Assembly (NCBI RefSeq): GCF_005938215.1
Contig: NZ_VCPD01000002.1
Location: forward strand, 744,001-808,000
DNA length: 64,000 bases
Direction: 5' to 3'
Origin: Ruegeria sediminis
GTDB taxonomy: Bacteria; Pseudomonadota; Alphaproteobacteria; Rhodobacterales; Rhodobacteraceae
Shown here: piece after piece, positions 1,408-9,868 of the stretch
Numbering within the stretch: position 1 is the stretch's first letter
Layout of the letters: each line of letters starts with the position of its first letter
Made by a program: the position numbers and the translations under genes
The notes under the pieces: generated by a model
The model's input: the letters and a program-made list of their open reading frames with translations, nothing else
Told to the model about the DNA's origin: nothing
Databases searched by the model: none

Positions 1408-2112
1408 TTATGCCGCGCAGAGACCGCACCACTCGGCGAGAGCCGCGGCGCGGTTTTGCTTGAAGTTGGCTCGGGAGGTGAGGCTGCGCTCCTGATTGAG
1501 TTAATTGCAGACGGAAGCATGAACGGAGGCGAATTTCTGCAAACTTCGCGTGCGCCTAAATCGCTGCATCTCCAGTTCTCGTCGTCGGAATGGCAGGTGC
1601 AAATTCTCGGTCCTGCTGTTTTAACAGCGCCCTGTTTCCTGCCGATCCGCTGTACCGATTTCCTTCAGAGCAGCGCCGTACGAGCGCAAACGATCGGTAA
1701 CAATCGTCTCAGGCCGTCCGTGCTTTCTCATTGCCTTCCTTAAGTATTTCAACGCCGCCTTCTTGTCCCGGGTCTTTGTCACAAAGCTCTCCAAGACCTC
1801 ACTTTCGTGATCTACGGCCCGCCACAAATAGTGACGTTCCCCATTGATTTTCACGAACACCTCGTCGAGATGCCATCGCCATTGGCTCGACTGCATCATC
1901 ATCACGCGACGTTTTCGGATTTCGGACGCAAGCATCGGACCAAACCGATGCCACCAGAACCGGACGGTTTCGTGGCTCACGTCGATGCCCCGTTCATGGA
2001 GAAGATCCTCGACGTTTCGCAAAGAGAGCGGAAATCGGATGTACAGCATTACTGCCAAGCGGATGATTTCCGGGCTGGTTTTGAAGTAGCGAAACGGCGA
2101 TCGCTTGGTCAT
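1408..2112 (-). pseudogene. IS6-family transposase, inactivated by two stop codons
   Basis: The reading frame from the ATG at 2112 gives the IS6/IS26-type transposase: the N-terminal zinc-finger/HTH region (FRYFKTSPEIIRLAVMLYIR) and the DDE domain starting WRWHLDEVFVKINGERHYLW, with the second Asp in TDRLRSYGAAL. Compared with the copies near 38.5 and 60 kb, the frame is interrupted by TAA at 1621-1623 and TAA at 1501-1503, and a Trp before the first stop has become Cys. Beyond the stops the homologous frame continues to a TAA at 1408-1410, so it is a point-mutated relic. Terminal sequence like that of the other copies runs to about 2172. Confidence 0.85.
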
Positions 2113-2238
2113 GGGCGGAAGCTACAAAACCGCTCTCCCCGCCTCAAGCCGGTTTGCTTTGACAGCGCCCCGCCAGCGGCTTTTCTTGTTTTTCTCTAGC
2201 GAAAATCTCTTGCGCTCTTGAAAGATACTTGCCGCGTG

Positions 2239-3207
2239 TCAGGCGAGGGACATGACACGCTCCAGCGTCCAGAAGGCGGCGATGCTGCCTATGGCAGCCC
2301 CGGCGACCAGCCCGCCGGCGCGTTCCGGAAGCTGCACGAGGCGAGCCAGAACGGCGCTGCCTTGGATCAAGGCAAACAATACAAGGATCTGACCGATCTC
2401 GACTCCGAGATTGAACCCGAGCAGCGCAGAAATCCGCGCCGTGTTCGGCAGGCCGATCTCGCCCAGGACACTGGCAAAACCCAAGCCGTGAACCAAGCCG
2501 ACCCCGGCAAGCAGCGCGGTATGGCGCCGGCCGAGCCGACGACCCAGCACCACGTCGCGGGCGAGGAAGACAACCGACAGGGCGATCACCGCCTCCATTG
2601 GACCGGCCGGGACCCGCAGGATGTCGAACGCAGCCAGACACAAGGTCAGTGAATGCCCGGTGGTAAAGGCCGTTGCCAAGCGCACCAGCGTCCACCCGCT
2701 GGCCAGCAGCGCCAGACAGACAAGCAGGGCGATGTGATCCAGTCCGATCAGGATGTGCTGGATCCCCAGGGACGTATATCCGACAAGCGCGGTCCAGAAG
2801 GATGGGGGGTGGCCCCCGGCCCCAGTCAAGGACAACCGTATGCCGTCCGGGCCGGCTTGAATCAATTTGCTGGTGGCCTGCCCGCCGGGTTCGAGCCGCG
2901 TCACCATCGCGGCCTGCAAGGCCCATGGCAGCAGAACATCTGTCGACTCGCCGAGGCCGGGGCACGCGATGATCCAGCGAACGCGTTGATTGCCGCCCGG
3001 TGCATCGCGAGCGATTGCGTGGCTGGACGTGCAGGCGGGCGCGACCACCGGGTCTGTGGCTTGGACCGTGGCAGAGAGCTTGGCACTCAACGACATGTCT
3101 CCGGTTTCGGTCCGCGTCAGTTCAACCTGCGCCAGCCCCAGGTCATGGGCGGACAGAGGGGCGGCCAGAAGCGCTAGGCACGCCACAAGAAAGAAGAGCG
3201 GCCTCAC
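2239..3207 (-). CDS. HupE/UreJ-family membrane protein
   Basis: The 322-residue protein has a signal peptide (MRPLFFLVACLALLAAPLSA), a ~110-residue periplasmic domain and then a C-terminal HupE/UreJ-like membrane domain of about six segments. His-containing motifs typical of the family are HILIGLDHIALL, TTGHSLTL and HGLGFASVLGEIG. HupE and UreJ proteins are linked to nickel or cobalt uptake, but the subgroup with a large periplasmic domain has no proven substrate. The GTG start at 3207 overlaps the TGA of the upstream parvulin gene, so translation is probably coupled. It is the last gene of the minus-strand operon that begins at the porin gene; a dead IS6 copy lies downstream. Confidence 0.8.
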   Translation of the reverse strand: MRPLFFLVACLALLAAPLSAHDLGLAQVELTRTETGDMSLSAKLSATVQATDPVVAPACTSSHAIARDAPGGNQRVRWIIACPGLGESTDVLLPWALQAAMVTRLEPGGQATSKLIQAGPDGIRLSLTGAGGHPPSFWTALVGYTSLGIQHILIGLDHIALLVCLALLASGWTLVRLATAFTTGHSLTLCLAAFDILRVPAGPMEAVIALSVVFLARDVVLGRRLGRRHTALLAGVGLVHGLGFASVLGEIGLPNTARISALLGFNLGVEIGQILVLFALIQGSAVLARLVQLPERAGGLVAGAAIGSIAAFWTLERVMSLA

Positions 3208-4106
3208 GGTTGGCGTCCCGGCCGGACCGTGCCAAGTACCAGTTCGGAGACATTCCGAACGTCGTCCGGCGGCGTATCTGCCAGATCGACGCGATAGTGT
3301 TGCCGCATGTCGGCCAGTTGCGCGTCATAGGTCTGTCTTCGATAGGCGGCTTCCCAATCCTCGCGCAATCGGCGCTGCAATTCGCGATCCGGCAGGGGTT
3401 TGGGATCGTGGAAAGCAATGATACGCAACACGTGCCACCCGCGGGCCGATCGGACCGGACCGGCCCAGGTGCCGGGTTCCAATCTGTTAAGGCTCTGCAC
3501 GAAGTCATGGCCCAGCAGGGTCAGTAGCTGCGAAATCGTATACTCTTCCAGTTGCTGGCCAAGCCAGAACCGGTCGCCCGCGCCGTCCGGAACGGCAGCA
3601 CCATCGGTCAGGTCAAGGAGCAATTGCCGTGCCGGTTCGGGGTCCGCCATGAAAAACACATGCTCGAAACTGATCGTGCGCGGATAGAGATAGCGATCCG
3701 GCCGTTCCGCTCGCAGGCGTTCGAGATCTTCGCGCGTCGGGTCCGGCGCGCGTTTCGCCATCAGGAAATGCATCTGGTCGATCATGCGTTTGCGGGTAAT
3801 CGGATCGTGCATGTAGAGGCCCAGCTTGACCGCTTCTCGCACCAGCACCTCCTGGTCGGCAAGATTCTGGAAGATCTGCTGGCGTTCCTCCTGCGTCAGG
3901 TCGCGGCCCAGCATGGCTGCGCGGTTGTCGATCAGCAGTTCGACGGAGTCGGGAGAGAGTACGATCGTTTCCTGCTCGGGCTCGCCGATCATGGCGTCAA
4001 AGCCAAAGATCGCAAGCGCCATCATCGTGAAACCGACCAGAGGTTCGCGCGACAGGTGCCGGAGCATGCCTGCCACATTCGCCTTTCTCACCCCGGCTGG
4101 CGTCAT
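3204..4106 (-). CDS. Parvulin-type peptidyl-prolyl isomerase
   Basis: A 300-residue protein with one N-terminal membrane anchor (VGFTMMALAIFGFDAMIG) followed by a SurA/PpiD-like helical region and a parvulin-like domain (SFEHVFFMADPEPARQLLLD, then GPVRSARGWHVLRI). Proteins of this layout assist folding of exported proteins in the periplasm. The ATG at 4106 overlaps the TGA of the exported ureohydrolase gene; an in-frame extension to 4286 only overlaps that gene. Its 3' end overlaps the HupE start. Position suggests a dedicated chaperone for the exported enzyme, the porin or the permease, which is an inference. Confidence 0.8.
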   Translation of the reverse strand: MTPAGVRKANVAGMLRHLSREPLVGFTMMALAIFGFDAMIGEPEQETIVLSPDSVELLIDNRAAMLGRDLTQEERQQIFQNLADQEVLVREAVKLGLYMHDPITRKRMIDQMHFLMAKRAPDPTREDLERLRAERPDRYLYPRTISFEHVFFMADPEPARQLLLDLTDGAAVPDGAGDRFWLGQQLEEYTISQLLTLLGHDFVQSLNRLEPGTWAGPVRSARGWHVLRIIAFHDPKPLPDRELQRRLREDWEAAYRRQTYDAQLADMRQHYRVDLADTPPDDVRNVSELVLGTVRPGRQP

Positions 4107-5359
4107 TGATCGTCGTCCAGAATCTCGGGGTTGATGTAGTCGTCCGGGAAACCCCGTTTCTTCATCGCCAACCCGTTCAGGCACTGGCGAAGCACGGCCT
4201 TGGAGTTCAAGATGGTGGTATAGCCCGGATCCCGCTCGGGGCGCAGTTCGACAATCTCCATTCCGACAAGATTCAGCTCGTGGCACATGCGGCGGATCGC
4301 CGGCAACACCTCGCGCATGTACATGCCGCCCGGTTCCGGGGTCGAGGTGCCGGGGATGAACGCCGGGTCGACCACATCGATGTCAAACGAAAGGAAGACA
4401 GGTTTGCCGTTGGCCTTGGCCTGTTGAAGGATGGTTTCGAGCGTCGGACCCCATCCGTTGCGGTCGATCTCGATCTGCATGTGATAGCGCAGACCCTGTT
4501 CGCGATTCCAGGCGACACCGCTTAGATCAGTGGAGTTCGGACCGCGCAGGCCGATCTGCACGACGTCGTTGCCGGTGATGAGGCCGTCCTCGATCAGTCG
4601 CCGCACCGGGTTTCCGTGGGTGTTGAACACGCCAAAGCCCACCGGCGCCTGGTCCGCATGGGCGTCGAAATGGATGATTTGAAGGTTGCCTTTACCGTAG
4701 ATGTCCGTCAGCCCTGCGGCATCGGGATACATCAGCGCGTGCCCGCCGCCGATGATGATCGGGATCGTGCGCCGACCATCCTCCAGTTCTACGCCCGCGA
4801 CTTCGGCTACGAAATTCCGAACCTCGGGGATTGAGGCTTCCATGCTCAGCGGATGCACCGGTGCATCACCGTAGTCGACAACGTTCAACTCGTCCAACGC
4901 GGCCAGCCCGCTATCCAACTCGGGCATGTGCAGGCCCCAGTTGTGATAGATCTCGGACTTCATCGGCGCACGCATTTCCATCGGTCCGTAGGACTGCACG
5001 CGCATGCCGTTGTACATCTCGGCGCCAAAGATCGCGACCTCCACCTGACCGGCCTTGAGGTCCTCGGGCGTCAACGCCACCGGCAGGTGGAAAAAGGTCG
5101 GAATGCCGACCCAAGGGAACCCGCCAACATAGCGCTGGACGTTGATCGGACCGGGTTCGCGGCCCTCTTGCAGATCGTCGCGCATCTTCTTCCAGAGATC
5201 GTAGGTCGGGTCGTGTCGGTTGAGACGGATCAGGGGCTCTTCCCCCTCCCGGATCGGGGCCATTTCATCTTCTTCGTCAACCGAAACGATCTGCGCCGCG
5301 GCGGCAAGAGGCATCAGCGCGGCCAAAGCGACGCTTGCCAGAAATGTCTTTGGGGTCAT
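4103..5359 (-). CDS. Exported ureohydrolase (arginase/agmatinase superfamily)
   Basis: The 418-residue protein carries the ureohydrolase metal-binding set: H207 in IIIGGGHALMYPD, D232/H234/D236 in HFDAHAD and D326/D328 in SFDIDVVDPAF, followed by a VELRPERD segment. These ligate two metal ions (Mn, or Ni in some relatives) that hydrolyse guanidino compounds to urea. Two things are odd. The usual GGDH is GGGH, and the protein has a clear Sec signal peptide (TFLASVALAALMPLAAAAQ), whereas arginases and agmatinases are normally cytoplasmic. Start: ATG 5359 with GGAGGG upstream; an ATG seven codons earlier is less likely. Substrate (agmatine, arginine, guanidinobutyrate, guanidine) cannot be decided from sequence. 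Confidence 0.85.
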   Translation of the reverse strand: MTPKTFLASVALAALMPLAAAAQIVSVDEEDEMAPIREGEEPLIRLNRHDPTYDLWKKMRDDLQEGREPGPINVQRYVGGFPWVGIPTFFHLPVALTPEDLKAGQVEVAIFGAEMYNGMRVQSYGPMEMRAPMKSEIYHNWGLHMPELDSGLAALDELNVVDYGDAPVHPLSMEASIPEVRNFVAEVAGVELEDGRRTIPIIIGGGHALMYPDAAGLTDIYGKGNLQIIHFDAHADQAPVGFGVFNTHGNPVRRLIEDGLITGNDVVQIGLRGPNSTDLSGVAWNREQGLRYHMQIEIDRNGWGPTLETILQQAKANGKPVFLSFDIDVVDPAFIPGTSTPEPGGMYMREVLPAIRRMCHELNLVGMEIVELRPERDPGYTTILNSKAVLRQCLNGLAMKKRGFPDDYINPEILDDDQ

Positions 5360-5402
5360 GTCGTCCCTCCTATTGGTCAAGCTTTTTCGGGAGAAAGGTA
5401 AA

Positions 5403-5768
5403 TCAGTAGTACTGGACCAGTTCAGCGGTCACCTCATCGACGATGCCTGCCATTAGGCGGTCGGCATCTGCGGCACAGGCATCCCCAATCTGGTCGGCGA
5501 ATTCGGTCTGGATCTCTTCGACTTCCGCATCGGTGAGGTTCATCTGCAGAAAGTCGATTCCGCGATTGTTGAGCGACACGGCCAGCATCAGGCCGATCAC
5601 GTCGAGCATCTTGTCCTCGTCGTTGTCGTATTGCGCCACAAGGGTGTTACAGGTCAGATGCAGATAGCCCTGCGCCTCGGCGAGAATGGCCTCGGCCTCG
5701 GCGTCTTGAGCAACGCTTGTGGATGCTGCCGAAAACAGAGCCAGCGAAAGAACAATAGTTCGAAACAT
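5403..5768 (-). CDS. Small secreted hypothetical protein
   Basis: A 121-residue protein with a signal peptide (MFRTIVLSLALFSAASTSVAQ) and a mature helical, strongly acidic part with two cysteines (HLTCNTLVAQYDNDEDKM and QIGDACAADADRLM) that could pair. No known family is recognised. ATG 5768 is preferred over GTG 5771 because of the spacing to AGGAGA. It lies between the glycine-zipper gene and the exported ureohydrolase gene on the same strand and is probably part of the same operon. Confidence 0.6.
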   Translation of the reverse strand: MFRTIVLSLALFSAASTSVAQDAEAEAILAEAQGYLHLTCNTLVAQYDNDEDKMLDVIGLMLAVSLNNRGIDFLQMNLTDAEVEEIQTEFADQIGDACAADADRLMAGIVDEVTAELVQYY

Positions 5769-5779
5769 CACGGTTCTCC

Positions 5780-5992
5780 TCAGCGTTTACGCTTGTTTTT
5801 CTTGACGCCACCAACGATGGCACCTGCCAGCGCTCCGTTACGGGCGCCCTTCTTGCCGCCAACCAATGCGCCGACGCCTGCTCCGATGGCAGCGCCTTTC
5901 AGGGCATCAGTATGTGCGGGAGTAGGTGTAAAACTCACCGCCAGCGCGGTAAGCGCAGCGGATACAAGCAAACGTTGGCCGTATAGGTACAT
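5780..5992 (-). CDS. Small glycine-zipper protein with signal peptide
   Basis: A 70-residue protein with an N-terminal export signal (RLLVSAALTALAVSF), a glycine-zipper stretch (GAAIGAGVGALVGG and GALAGAIVGG) and a very basic tail (KKNKRKR). Glycine zippers of this kind associate with the outer membrane or periplasm in other proteins. It follows the porin gene by 22 bases and precedes the small secreted gene by 11 bases. GAGGT lies upstream of the ATG. The function is unknown. Confidence 0.6.
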   Translation of the reverse strand: MYLYGQRLLVSAALTALAVSFTPTPAHTDALKGAAIGAGVGALVGGKKGARNGALAGAIVGGVKKNKRKR

Positions 5993-6014
5993 TGATTACC
6001 TCTTCATTCTGTAC

Positions 6015-7229
6015 TCAAAGCGCGAGCCGCAGGCGCAGGCCTAGGACGACCTCCGAATTTGCGTTGCTGTTGGCGGGATCGAACACGACCTGAATGTCCG
6101 GCGTGACCTGAAGGTAGGGCGTGACTTGTGCGTTATAGAACATCTCGATGCCTCTCTCGTCGCGCAGGGCGGGGTTGGACGGGTCACCCCACCAACCACC
6201 CAGGCCGAACCTGTCATAGGTGAATCCAAAGGGTTTCTTGATCTGAAACCCCAGAGCTGCCCTGCGCCGGAAATCCCTGAACGTGGTATCCGCGCGTGCG
6301 TATCGGGCAAATCCGCCGAAACGTGCGCCGAAATCCTGGTCCGCGCTGATCGACCAGGTTTCCATCCGGGGCAGAGTATCGTTTGCTTCGTCCAGCGACC
6401 AGGTCAGCCGGTAAATGCCATCGCCCAATCCGGGGATGCCGGGTGTCAGCGCCGCCTCGACCACGTAACCGCGCTTGCCTTCCTTCCAGGCATCAGTGGA
6501 CAGCCCCAGTTCGGTGTCAGGTGCGCGCACGAGGGCCGACACCCGCCACAAGTCGCTCCGGTATTCGCCAAATACACCGAGCCCAAGCAGCGCGGTGTAG
6601 GGCACGACCGGGTTGTTCCCCAGCATGGGCGAGAAGAACATCTCGCTGTCGCCGTTGGCGTAACGGTTGAGGTTGACCAAGGTGCGCAGAGCCAGCTTGC
6701 CCGCTTGCACCCGCCAACGTTCGTCCGGGGAAACATACTCGACTACCAGCATCTGCAGGATCTGGTTGGAGGTGTCCGGCCCGGAATTGCCTCCGTTCAG
6801 GGGGGACAGGATCCCGAGGTCGTTCTGGAACCGACCCGCAGTGCGCCCGCCAAGCGAATTGGCGAACTGACCCCAGATATTGAGCGACACCGTGCCCGGC
6901 GAGAACCGAAAAGCCTCTTGTCGCGCTATGAGGTTGAGTTCGTTGTCATAAAGCTCGGCCTCCGGACCCCACTGATTGATCAGGCGGTTTTCGATCAGGA
7001 ACGACAGGCCATGGCGCTGCTGGACCCCGGTTTTCCAATCGGCATAGGAGTCGTAGGCCCTGTCGATCAGCCCGATAGACAGGTAGCCATCACGCTCCGA
7101 GGTCGGCTCGAATACGCCCGACATCTCGCCATATTCAAAGCCGACTGTCTCAGCATGAAGGCCGGAAGGCCCGGTCAGAAAGACGATTGTCACCAAACAT
7201 ATCGTCAAATGGCGATTCAAAACGCGCAT
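6015..7229 (-). CDS. OprB-like outer-membrane porin
   Basis: A 404-residue protein with a signal peptide ending at GLHAE and the alternating beta-strand pattern of OprB carbohydrate porins (for example SLNIWGQFANSLGG, YRLTWSLDEAND and GIEMFYNAQVTPYLQVTPDIQ), closing with an aromatic/Leu-rich last strand. OprB proteins form 16-stranded channels for small solutes; the solute here is unknown. It is the first gene of the minus-strand unit porin - glycine-zipper - small secreted - ureohydrolase - parvulin - HupE. A 123-base gap separates it from the divergent winged-helix regulator at 7353, which should hold both promoters. Confidence 0.8.
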   Translation of the reverse strand: MRVLNRHLTICLVTIVFLTGPSGLHAETVGFEYGEMSGVFEPTSERDGYLSIGLIDRAYDSYADWKTGVQQRHGLSFLIENRLINQWGPEAELYDNELNLIARQEAFRFSPGTVSLNIWGQFANSLGGRTAGRFQNDLGILSPLNGGNSGPDTSNQILQMLVVEYVSPDERWRVQAGKLALRTLVNLNRYANGDSEMFFSPMLGNNPVVPYTALLGLGVFGEYRSDLWRVSALVRAPDTELGLSTDAWKEGKRGYVVEAALTPGIPGLGDGIYRLTWSLDEANDTLPRMETWSISADQDFGARFGGFARYARADTTFRDFRRRAALGFQIKKPFGFTYDRFGLGGWWGDPSNPALRDERGIEMFYNAQVTPYLQVTPDIQVVFDPANSNANSEVVLGLRLRLAL

Positions 7230-7352
7230 TCTGCATCGAAACTCACTATGCTCTCAGTCTGATGATAAGATGAGGCCAAAATGCAGGTAAGTTTCCGAGC
7301 GTTACAAGATTGAAGGGAGCATGAGGGAATCCAACAACACCAATGCAGCTAA

Positions 7353-8879
7353 ATGTTGAAATCGCGAGCCGAAATGGCGAATCGTTCTGATACCGGCGAC
7401 AACCAAATCTCGGTTGAGCGCGAACTGACCTTTGTTCTGGGTCATGCCCGCCGCGAGCTGCGTCCGCAGAGCGTTCGCCTGCTGCGCTACCTGGCCGATG
7501 CCGGGGCGACGGGCGCTGTGGACCAGACGTCTATCGCCATCGACGTCTTGGGACGCGGTTCACGATTTCGGGCGGATGTCGATTCCCAAGTCCGGGTGGT
7601 GGTCTCTCGGCTCCGCAAGGACCTGGCCGCGCTTTATGATGGGGTCGGAGCCTTTCGCCCACTGCGCCTGAGCATCCCGAAAGGCCGCTATTGCGTCTCG
7701 GTCTTGCCCAATGACGCCATCGTTCTGGACCGGGACCCTGCTCCGGAGCTGAGGCCGTTTTTTGTCTGGACCGTTTCGACAGAAATGACGCCCGAGGCGA
7801 TGTCTGTCGGGCACCGGATCGACAGGGCACTGGCCGCGCGGTTTGTCCAAGCCCCCCTGGTGCATGACGGCGCGCTCAGGGCGGACCGGATCCCGCCATC
7901 ACCACCGGAAAAGGCGCTGGACGAGGCTCAAAGGTCCGGTGCCCCTTGCCTGGCGCTGGTGGTTGTGCGCGCGCCGGACCAGCCGGTCGTGCTGGAGATA
8001 CATTGCCCGAAGCGCGACCGTGCGCCGATCATCAAGAGCCTTGGCCGCTTGGGCGACGATCTGGGAGTCGACCGGCTGGTGCGGCGCATCGTACTGGCCT
8101 TGACCGACCCGCTCCAAAGCGTGGTGCCCGGGCGCCTTGCGCGTCTTTTCCCAAACTGCCGACTGGCACTGGCCGGGCGCTTTTTGGGTTTCATGGCCAC
8201 GCAAGATCATGCGCGACTGCCGGCCTGTTTCGACGCGTTTGTAAACGCCGCCGGGTCGCGACTGGACTCGCCGCTGATCCGGGCACTGCGGGTCGACACG
8301 ATCCGGTCGAATTACGCCTTTGCGACGGGCCGGGTGGCCTGGTTGCGACCGGATCTCGTCGAGACAGCCGCCCTCGTTTGCGAAAGCGACCCGTACCAGC
8401 CGTATGCGGTCTTGGCGCATGCCTATGCAACAATCGCGACGGGTGCGGATCACCCTCCGGAGCTGCCGTCACGGGATGCCGAGGGTATCAATTGGGAGGG
8501 GTCGCTGGGGGACGATTATGAACTGTATCAATCCCTGAAAATGGCGCCCGAAAGCGGCTCGGACAACGCCGGGTCCGGCCATCCGGGTTCTTTCATGGCG
8601 GACTTGGCGCATATCCTGTCCGCGGTTCAGTCCGGGGATATCGAGCAGGCCGCAGACCAGGCGTTCAAACCGCGGCCGGACGAGAATTTTTGGACCCGTG
8701 TATTTCAGTGTTCGCTGGCGGAGGATCTCGGCGATCGGCACACGTCGCGGCAGATCTGGGCGTGGCTCAGGGCGGAAGTGCCCCGTGTGGAGGATTTCGC
8801 CGGACGGGCCATCGTGACAATGATACCCGACAAGGACCTGCATTCCCGTCTTTTGTACAACCTGGCCAACATCACCTGA
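7353..8879 (+). CDS. Winged-helix (OmpR/PhoB-type) regulator with long C-terminal domain
   Basis: A 508-residue protein. Roughly residues 25-115 look like an OmpR-type winged helix: a core LRPQSVRLLRYLADAGATGAV, then VRVVVSRLRKDLAAL as recognition helix and a wing with PKGRYCVSVLP. No receiver domain precedes it. The remaining ~390 residues are helical and resemble the effector regions of CadC-like or cyclase-associated regulators, without a recognised motif. It is transcribed away from the porin/ureohydrolase operon and is the obvious candidate to control it. ATG 7353 or ATG 7374 could be the start. Confidence 0.65.
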   Translation: MLKSRAEMANRSDTGDNQISVERELTFVLGHARRELRPQSVRLLRYLADAGATGAVDQTSIAIDVLGRGSRFRADVDSQVRVVVSRLRKDLAALYDGVGAFRPLRLSIPKGRYCVSVLPNDAIVLDRDPAPELRPFFVWTVSTEMTPEAMSVGHRIDRALAARFVQAPLVHDGALRADRIPPSPPEKALDEAQRSGAPCLALVVVRAPDQPVVLEIHCPKRDRAPIIKSLGRLGDDLGVDRLVRRIVLALTDPLQSVVPGRLARLFPNCRLALAGRFLGFMATQDHARLPACFDAFVNAAGSRLDSPLIRALRVDTIRSNYAFATGRVAWLRPDLVETAALVCESDPYQPYAVLAHAYATIATGADHPPELPSRDAEGINWEGSLGDDYELYQSLKMAPESGSDNAGSGHPGSFMADLAHILSAVQSGDIEQAADQAFKPRPDENFWTRVFQCSLAEDLGDRHTSRQIWAWLRAEVPRVEDFAGRAIVTMIPDKDLHSRLLYNLANIT

Positions 8880-9126
8880 TCCACCAAGTGTAATTTCTCC
8901 TTGAATGATGCCCTGGGGGCCAGCCGGCTCAAATATCTTGAGAGGGTTTTCGCATTATTCACTTCTGACCCAGCTCCCGGCTCAACGCCGCGGTCGAAGC
9001 TTGCGATCGCTGTATTGCTGCTCGGATGACGTGCGTGGTCGTGGCGCTGCCGTGACGAACTTGTCCCATAGTACTTCCTTCCATTCTCGTGAATGGATCG
9101 CACCATCAAACCGTGGGATCAAACAC

Positions 9127-9499: not shown

Positions 9500-9868
9500 T
9501 CAGCCGCCGTGCCGGGGCCGGACGGTGACGGTTCCGGTCATGTGCGGATGAAAGGCGCAGAAATATTCAAACGCGCCCTGGGACTCGAAGGTCACACGCG
9601 CCTCCTTGCCTTTGCGGATGGCGCCGGTGTCCCAATCGCCATCCGTCGCAGTCGCCGTATGCGGCGCGAGATCTTCGTTGATCCAGACGATGGTGTCGCC
9701 TGTGGCGATCTCGACCCGTTCCGGATTGAACGCGAAGTCGGAAATGCGGACTTCGACCACCCGCGGGGCGTCACTTGCGGGCACCGGTCGCGGCAGCATG
9801 GCCAGAGCAAGAGACGCGCCCAGGCTCTGACCGAATGCGCGGCGCGACAGGCGGCCTAGCCGTCGCAT
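9500..9868 (-). CDS. Cupredoxin (plastocyanin/azurin-like), Tat-type signal
   Basis: A 122-residue periplasmic blue-copper-type protein. The N-terminus has a twin-arginine motif (SRRAFGQSLGASLALAML). Copper ligands fit the type-1 pattern: His in LAPHTAT, then Cys, His and Met in YFCAFHPHMTG. The fold is plastocyanin-like (DTIVWINEDLAPHTAT). Likely an electron carrier or copper-binding protein. Its start overlaps the end of the DUF4142 gene, so the two are translationally coupled. Confidence 0.8.
   Translation of the reverse strand: MRRLGRLSRRAFGQSLGASLALAMLPRPVPASDAPRVVEVRISDFAFNPERVEIATGDTIVWINEDLAPHTATATDGDWDTGAIRKGKEARVTFESQGAFEYFCAFHPHMTGTVTVRPRHGG

Follow-up and report, generated by a model that had tools for sequence, protein, structure and literature searches.

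Why a ureohydrolase with an export-type N-terminus should share an operon with a porin, a prolyl isomerase, and a membrane permease is the question raised by a locus of Ruegeria sediminis (GCF_005938215.1; genome of 4.23 Mb), analyzed here within a stretch of 64,000 nt (contig NZ_VCPD01000002.1, positions 744,001-808,000) that is referred to as the window. On balance, we favor the reading that the operon encodes a periplasmic enzyme for the hydrolysis of guanidino compounds, whose folding and metal loading are served by dedicated proteins, and that its parvulin and HupE_UreJ_2 genes represent a reusable pair for the maturation of exoenzymes. A preliminary description of this DNA had also proposed a periplasmic guanidino-compound system, and the neighborhood upholds it in so far as distant relatives again combine an exported ureohydrolase with a porin, a parvulin, and a permease, but the six genes on which it was based are not all part of the core. 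The view is widened here to a cassette in which an exported metallohydrolase is accompanied by a parvulin and HupE_UreJ_2 and to which a porin and a regulator are added in the ureohydrolase version.

The ureohydrolase operon and its recurrence

The operon runs on the minus strand from 7229 to 2239 in the order OprB-like porin (6015-7229), glycine-zipper peptide (5780-5992), small acidic secreted protein (5403-5768), ureohydrolase (4103-5359), parvulin-type peptidyl-prolyl isomerase (3204-4106), and HupE_UreJ_2 permease (2239-3207). Gaps of 22, 11, and 43 bp separate the first four genes, and 4-base overlaps join the ureohydrolase to the parvulin, whose start lies over the ureohydrolase stop, and the parvulin to the HupE gene. 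The preliminary description had placed these open reading frames (ORFs) and the plus-strand regulator gene correctly and had rightly called the six contiguous or overlapping.

The ureohydrolase belongs to the ureohydrolase (arginase/agmatinase) superfamily, as it matches the Arginase family (PF00491, E 2.5e-59) and retains all six metal ligands. These residues (H207, D232, H234, D236, D326, and D328), which correspond to the metal ligands of arginase, are invariant along with E371 in all nine ureohydrolases aligned, the one from the window included, as is an A22-Q23 junction following the hydrophobic start of what appears by eye to be a Sec-like N-terminus. On the basis of the invariant ligands and this junction, we read the protein as a catalytically intact enzyme that is probably Sec-exported, export being judged by eye. 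The more distant ureohydrolases of two further loci (L184 and L181) have hydrophobic starts but no A-Q junction.

Close relatives of this enzyme are rare. With the own genome counted each time, they are found in 8 of the 390 genomes searched for the order (E 1e-60), in 2 of 398 for the phylum (1e-50), and, by profile, in 2 of 318 for the class (1e-60). A scan of genome contigs with the ureohydrolase gave four loci. All six genes are present in Cribrihabitans marinus (L007, identical to L022); porin, ureohydrolase, parvulin, and HupE genes are present in Fluviibacterium (L010) and in a gammaproteobacterial metagenome-assembled genome (MAG; L008); and a Xanthomonadaceae MAG (L009) has the regulator, porin, and ureohydrolase, with no parvulin-HupE pair in the stretch. 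In genome G380 (L028, 8900-11176), the cluster has decayed, with the porin intact, the ureohydrolase and parvulin broken, and no HupE gene in the stretch. Genome G160 (L029) has a ureohydrolase matching at 32% with a parvulin-HupE pair, and also a second ureohydrolase and, further off, an OprB gene. Four loci from the genus of the window (L024-L027) encode a ~45%-identical, exported-looking ureohydrolase with no parvulin-HupE pair nearby. The core consists of the regulator, OprB porin, exported ureohydrolase, parvulin, and HupE_UreJ_2. The check for co-occurrence across relatives that the preliminary description had proposed finds this core conserved in Cribrihabitans, Fluviibacterium, and the gammaproteobacterial MAG.

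An accidental neighborhood, for which the patchy distribution just described might be taken to speak, is extremely improbable. Among the 13 loci besides the window that were found through the ureohydrolase alone, 5 have the parvulin-HupE pair intact at a distance of at most ~110 bp, and in a sixth a broken remnant is left, so that with the window included the intact pair is present in 6 of 14 ureohydrolase loci; the probability of at least 5 of 13 arising by chance is 4e-9 to 4e-6, assuming a rough per-locus chance of 0.5-2 percent that is our own estimate. The pair stands beside the ureohydrolase in Cribrihabitans, Fluviibacterium, the gammaproteobacterial MAG, G160, and a Novosphingobium plasmid (NZ_CP141945.1; L181/L185), which refutes accident at a rough p of <1e-5.

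The remaining members of the core are the porin and the regulator. The porin, which has a signal-peptide-like start, matches OprB (PF04966, E 9.7e-12; 45.4 bits against a cut-off of 22.9) over its C-terminal 54 residues alone (349-402), and in the window, L007-L010, and L028 a porin is separated from the ureohydrolase by 0-635 bp. No informative PDB match to the porin was obtained with phmmer. Assignment to AaxA, the best NCBIfam match, was rejected at 25 bits against a cut-off of 600. The divergent regulator (~508 aa; plus strand, 7353-8879) has homologs in the ureohydrolase clusters of L007, L008, L009, L010, L024, L027, and L028, and ~3 kb from the enzyme in L026, in variable orientation (same strand in L007, convergent in L009). 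Its placement facing away from the operon was described correctly, while its earlier label as a winged-helix protein is weak, as Trans_reg_C scores 12.1 bits, below the cut-off of 26.2. In Cribrihabitans, an agmatinase-type gene over NCBIfam cut-offs and an oligopeptide-type ATP-binding cassette (ABC) transporter adjoin the regulator (L007, 630-6295).

The glycine-zipper peptide (PF13441, E 8.9e-8) and the acidic protein, which has two cysteines and an isoelectric point of 4.05, had been counted as members of the system, and we have dropped both from the core and treat them as accessory, as outside the window they occur in Cribrihabitans only (glycine-zipper homolog in L007/L022; acidic homolog 70% identical). 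The acidic protein matches no family over its cut-off, resembling HdeA at E 0.12 only.

The parvulin and HupE_UreJ_2 pair and its partners

The parvulin belongs by profile to the parvulin-type peptidyl-prolyl isomerases (PF13145, Rotamase_2, E 1.6e-9; 39 bits against a cut-off of 27) with one hydrophobic segment, at residues 23-42, by which it would be anchored in the membrane. The permease carries the membrane domain of HupE_UreJ_2 proteins (PF13795, E 6.2e-36) and, with the signal peptide cleavage site placed by eye, a His directly after it (H21), from which a periplasmic beta domain would extend in an architecture like that of the anglerase Ang-1. An N-terminal His is present in 25 of 25 HupE proteins of a first alignment and, in a wider set, in 5/7 ureohydrolase-linked, 25/31 DUF3604-linked, and 5/7 other proteins; H151, D157, H158, H185, E205, H240, E270, and Q273 are invariant in 45/45 parvulin-linked HupE proteins. 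A structure model (predicted local distance difference test, pLDDT, 74.4) places strands between 25 and 126 and seven helices after 137, and its best two Foldseek matches, both weak, are PA4063 (7aly, E 1.1e-3) and Ang-1 (9gce, E 0.076). A phmmer search of the permease against PDB chains gave no sequence match at E 1.

The parvulin and HupE_UreJ_2 are a standing two-gene unit, of which DUF3604 is the commoner partner and the ureohydrolase a minority partner, a general module that the preliminary description had not foreseen. HupE_UreJ_2-type proteins are common, with matches to the window protein at 1e-15 in 175 of 292 genomes of the order and PF13795 matches at 1e-10 in 49 of 249 genomes of the phylum. 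In loci selected through HupE that have both genes, the parvulin adjoins HupE in 34/34, an exported-looking DUF3604 protein is encoded in the stretch in 29/34, and a ureohydrolase in 0/34. These comprise 20 Rhodobacterales loci (parvulin next to HupE in 20/20, DUF3604 in the stretch in 16/20) and the 14 of 52 phylum-wide loci that have a parvulin (DUF3604 in 13/14). The Rhodobacterales loci are ranks 4-24 of the HupE match list minus G027; ranks 1-3 (the window, G233, and G160:C5), all ureohydrolase-linked, had already been collected and were excluded. The 52 phylum-wide stretches cover 53 of 73 listed places, the 20 dropped being five further genomes of family f38, seven same-family places, two own ones, and six fragments. 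On plasmids, parvulin, HupE, and DUF3604 occur together in 8/8 loci fetched via HupE, a sample, besides Novosphingobium, from 74 plasmid records with a HupE match (40 listed). DUF3604 is usually encoded just upstream of the pair (downstream in L066 and L077), and the exact 4-base parvulin/HupE overlap is found in 26/39 loci. The genome of R. sediminis has both versions, with one pair beside DUF3604 (L079) and the pair of the window beside the ureohydrolase.

DUF3604 is a protein of unknown function according to Pfam, and its exported-looking members have a GDTHLHT-like start and many invariant His, Asp, and Glu residues in nine sequences. By resemblance, we take it for a putative PHP-like metallohydrolase; phmmer found no useful match to it in the PDB.

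The two versions of the pair are also separated in maximum-likelihood trees, made first from 39 loci and then from 45 rows, the added rows including two Novosphingobium pairs from a locus found via its ureohydrolase. Ureohydrolase-linked rows make up one side of a branch for HupE (support 99/96 with 39 loci, 100/96 with 45 rows) and for the parvulin (95/90 and 95/87). There are seven such rows in the 45-row trees, and label shuffles scored as low in 0/500 cases.

These counts bear on a reading in which the parvulin folds the porin in the manner of SurA and HupE is only a bystander transporter. An OprB porin does head the operon, and the parvulin has a very weak match to SurA_N (E 0.4, below the cut-off), but none of the 20 Rhodobacterales loci with a parvulin-HupE pair has a porin by the porin profile, and the parvulin tracks HupE rather than the porin, which in L009 is present without a parvulin in the stretch. 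We consider this role very improbable.

On its downstream side, the operon is bounded by an interrupted IS6-family transposase that lies outside the system (minus strand, 1411-2112; NF033587, E 3.4e-51 for the ORF at 1621-2112), 126 bp from the operon end. Positions 2112-1411 give an 81.6% alignment with the IS6 protein of L180, and IS6-type transposases are found near three parvulin-HupE loci (window, 1411-2112; L077, 2828-3520; L180, 842-1546). The GC content is 0.58-0.63 over 2001-9000, and the region is not set apart. A small secreted cupredoxin-like protein is encoded at 9500-9868.

Possible metal supply to an exported-looking enzyme

For the ureohydrolase version, we infer the following route. 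The OprB porin would admit a small guanidino compound across the outer membrane, and the periplasmic enzyme would cleave it to urea and an amine. The anchored parvulin may fold the enzyme on its exit from the translocon, and the HupE_UreJ_2 protein, as a metal carrier in the membrane whose periplasmic domain is of a metal-binding type, would supply the metal.

Several described systems resemble parts of this route. The operon of the window resembles an exported version of the metformin hydrolase operon, with the parvulin possibly replacing cytosolic chaperones. The MefH operon of Aminobacter and Pseudomonas combines ureohydrolase genes with a dedicated metal supply and a hupE homolog directly downstream, it includes urea transport genes in Aminobacter, and its enzyme pairs an active with a degenerate subunit, as the Novosphingobium tandem described below appears to do; unlike the window operon, it is cytosolic and has the nickel chaperones HypA/HypB instead of a parvulin, no porin is named in the available passages of that report, and the terms "signal peptide" and "periplasm" are absent from its main text (PMC11399263). 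In Chlamydia, the AaxABC arginine-agmatine exchange system likewise places an OprB-related porin, AaxA, in a guanidino-compound system, but its enzyme is a decarboxylase rather than a hydrolase and the window porin is not an AaxA member.

A comparison of how such a pair might work is offered by Bacillus subtilis, in which PrsA is a parvulin. There, the TerC proteins MeeF/MeeY act as membrane metal carriers that metalate Sec-exported enzymes and co-immunoprecipitate with PrsA, but they belong to an unrelated carrier family (Pfam03741), handle manganese, and are general rather than devoted to one enzyme, as far as the available text of the report goes (PMC10550928). The window permease is not a TerC carrier, matching PF13795 and PF04955 only. 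By this comparison, the parvulin and HupE_UreJ_2 might tentatively be seen as a client-dedicated Gram-negative machine for exoenzyme metalation, in which metal is moved outward, or concentrated at the membrane face, and passed by the periplasmic domain to an enzyme that emerges from Sec and is held by the parvulin, with DUF3604 proteins and exported ureohydrolases as the two classes of client seen here, each served by a separate sub-lineage of the pair.

In architecture, the permease itself matches Ang-1-HupE/UreJ-2, with which it shares PF13795, a signal peptide, an N-terminal His, and a beta-sandwich before the membrane domain, while the terms "peptidyl", "isomerase", "arginase", "agmatinase", and "DUF3604" are absent from the main text of the anglerase report (PMC12537917). 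For Ang-1, which is the periplasmic domain of a HupE/UreJ-2 protein, binding of Cu (74 nM) and Ni (220 nM) is described in the accessible part of the same report (PMC12537917). Genes of the zinc-uptake type adjoin ureohydrolase loci of two lineages. The Cribrihabitans locus continues after HupE with genes for ZrgA, an ABC ATPase, an FtsX-type permease, and DUF3299, and in L024-L027 the ureohydrolase gene is overlapped at its 3' end by a secreted DUF3299-type gene (tested with Pfam in L024, the others by similarity). The solved protein 4hsp is matched by both of the DUF3299 proteins tested and may be the PA4066/ZrgE structure mentioned in PMC9820375. The Zrg (PA4063-PA4066) zinc uptake system is related to the locus in that PA4063, the top Foldseek match of the HupE model, is homologous to the ZrgA of L007; it is an ABC importer and is absent from the window locus, ZrgA being encoded elsewhere in that genome. 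ZrgA was seen near three HupE stretches only (L007, L054, and L078). The metal may be zinc or nickel, each of which has some support. The nickel link of the preliminary description proves non-specific, as the permease belongs to HupE_UreJ_2 and misses classical HupE/UreJ (PF04955) by 0.1 bit (22.9 against the Pfam cut-off of 23); with zinc-uptake-type genes beside two ureohydrolase lineages and Ang-1 favoring Cu before Ni, nickel as the settled metal was rejected.

On a Rhodobacteraceae plasmid (L205, 2705-10747), DUF3604, a second HupE (PF04955), the parvulin, HupE_UreJ_2, two CobW GTPases, and DUF1826 form a set that suggests a metal regulon.

Metal uptake is at the center of the rival that we take most seriously, though we consider it unlikely, namely that HupE imports a scarce metal into the cytoplasm and that metal limitation simply brings the enzyme and porin under common regulation. 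It fits the published proposal of Ang-1/HupE_UreJ-2 as an uptake apparatus (PMC12537917, in its accessible part), the Zrg-type genes after HupE in L007, and the CobW GTPases and DUF1826 after the DUF3604-linked pair in L205. What it leaves unexplained are the coupling of parvulin to HupE and the exported-looking, metal-ligand-rich partners from two unrelated families, and the ureohydrolase keeps its regulator also in loci that lack HupE (L009, L024, and L027).

Several observations weigh against the preferred reading of dedicated folding and metal loading. An importer such as Ang-1 is proposed to be would not obviously help a periplasmic enzyme, and it is in the direction of metal flow that the reading is weakest; Ang-1 is also slightly destabilized by Zn and Mn (PMC12537917, in its accessible part), and the ZrgA of L007 is over the Pfam cut-off but under that of NCBIfam (152 against 185 bits). 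No pair is present in the stretch at L009, L024-L027, L080 (1.5 kb on each side), or L184. The pair elsewhere in the genome of L009 groups with the DUF3604 type, and the idea that a distant ureohydrolase-type pair supplies the L009 enzyme was rejected for that reason. Pairs with neither enzyme in the stretch occur in L065, L073, L075, L078, L144, L173, and L174, the DUF3604 gene of L068 is 1.3 kb away on the opposite strand, and the parvulin is absent from 38/52 phylum-wide HupE loci. The N-terminal His is absent from 2/7 ureohydrolase-linked, 6/31 DUF3604-linked, and 2/7 other HupE proteins. Some tree rows have long branches, and inheritance of the whole operon from one founder would give an identical tree pattern, which would still represent a long-kept linkage.

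Substrate and a possible link to urea

The identity of the substrate was approached through the relatives of the enzyme and its neighbors. The ureohydrolase misses the NCBIfam equivalog cut-offs for agmatinase (113.6 against 174.3), arginase (85.7 against 227.6), and formimidoylglutamase (111.2 against 229.15), and its closest solved relatives in the PDB are guanidinobutyrase (3nio), 3-guanidinopropionase (3nip), and proclavaminate amidinohydrolase. The window enzyme and its four closest relatives have GGGH at the place of GGDH, the motif of the family. The structure model of the enzyme (pLDDT 44.7) is too poor to inform on the pocket, a further point that does not favor our reading.

That exported ureohydrolases make urea is suggested most strongly by the neighborhood on the Novosphingobium plasmid, in which urt genes, two parvulin-HupE pairs, three exported-looking ureohydrolases, and urease genes lie within ~26 kb (stretch ~741-768 kb, which has no gene annotation in PLSDB); this part of the guanidino-compound proposal is strengthened by it. 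The order is urtD, urtC, urtB, urtA, HupE-parvulin, two ureohydrolases, a TonB-receptor-like gene below NCBIfam cut-offs, and the second parvulin-HupE pair, after which come a third Arginase-family ORF, UreD, urease beta, urease alpha, and a gene for a CobW/HypB/UreG-family GTPase. UrtA, UrtB, and UrtC are over NCBIfam cut-offs, and urtD, an over-long ORF, scores 299.7 against 304.1 bits. In the second ureohydrolase ORF, the second aspartate of the SxDxD motif is replaced. In another locus with an exported-looking ureohydrolase, the gene at L184 11557-12666 looks amidinotransferase-like by eye but matches nothing in Pfam or NCBIfam.

It is improbable, in our judgment, that the enzyme cleaves some other amidine-like substrate and that the urea link is peculiar to Novosphingobium. 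The family does hold formimidoylglutamase. In the genome of the window, urease alpha was not found and neither UrtA nor urea carboxylase reached its cut-off, so that nitrogen supply by urea is unsupported there. The MAGs of L008 and L009 have neither urease alpha nor UrtA over cut-off. Against this alternative, the best PDB relatives of known function are guanidinobutyrase, guanidinopropionase, and proclavaminate amidinohydrolase, and the genomes of L007, L010, and G160 encode urease alpha, those of L010 and G160 also a UrtA over cut-off.

The metal choice of exported metalloenzymes has been called "less clear" (PMC10550928, in its available text), and a swappable pair with two unrelated exported-looking partners represents a testable Gram-negative counterpart to TerC. 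The pair also provides a functional handle on DUF3604, while its ureohydrolase version would give guanidino compounds a route through the periplasm, one that on a single plasmid adjoins urea transport and urease genes.

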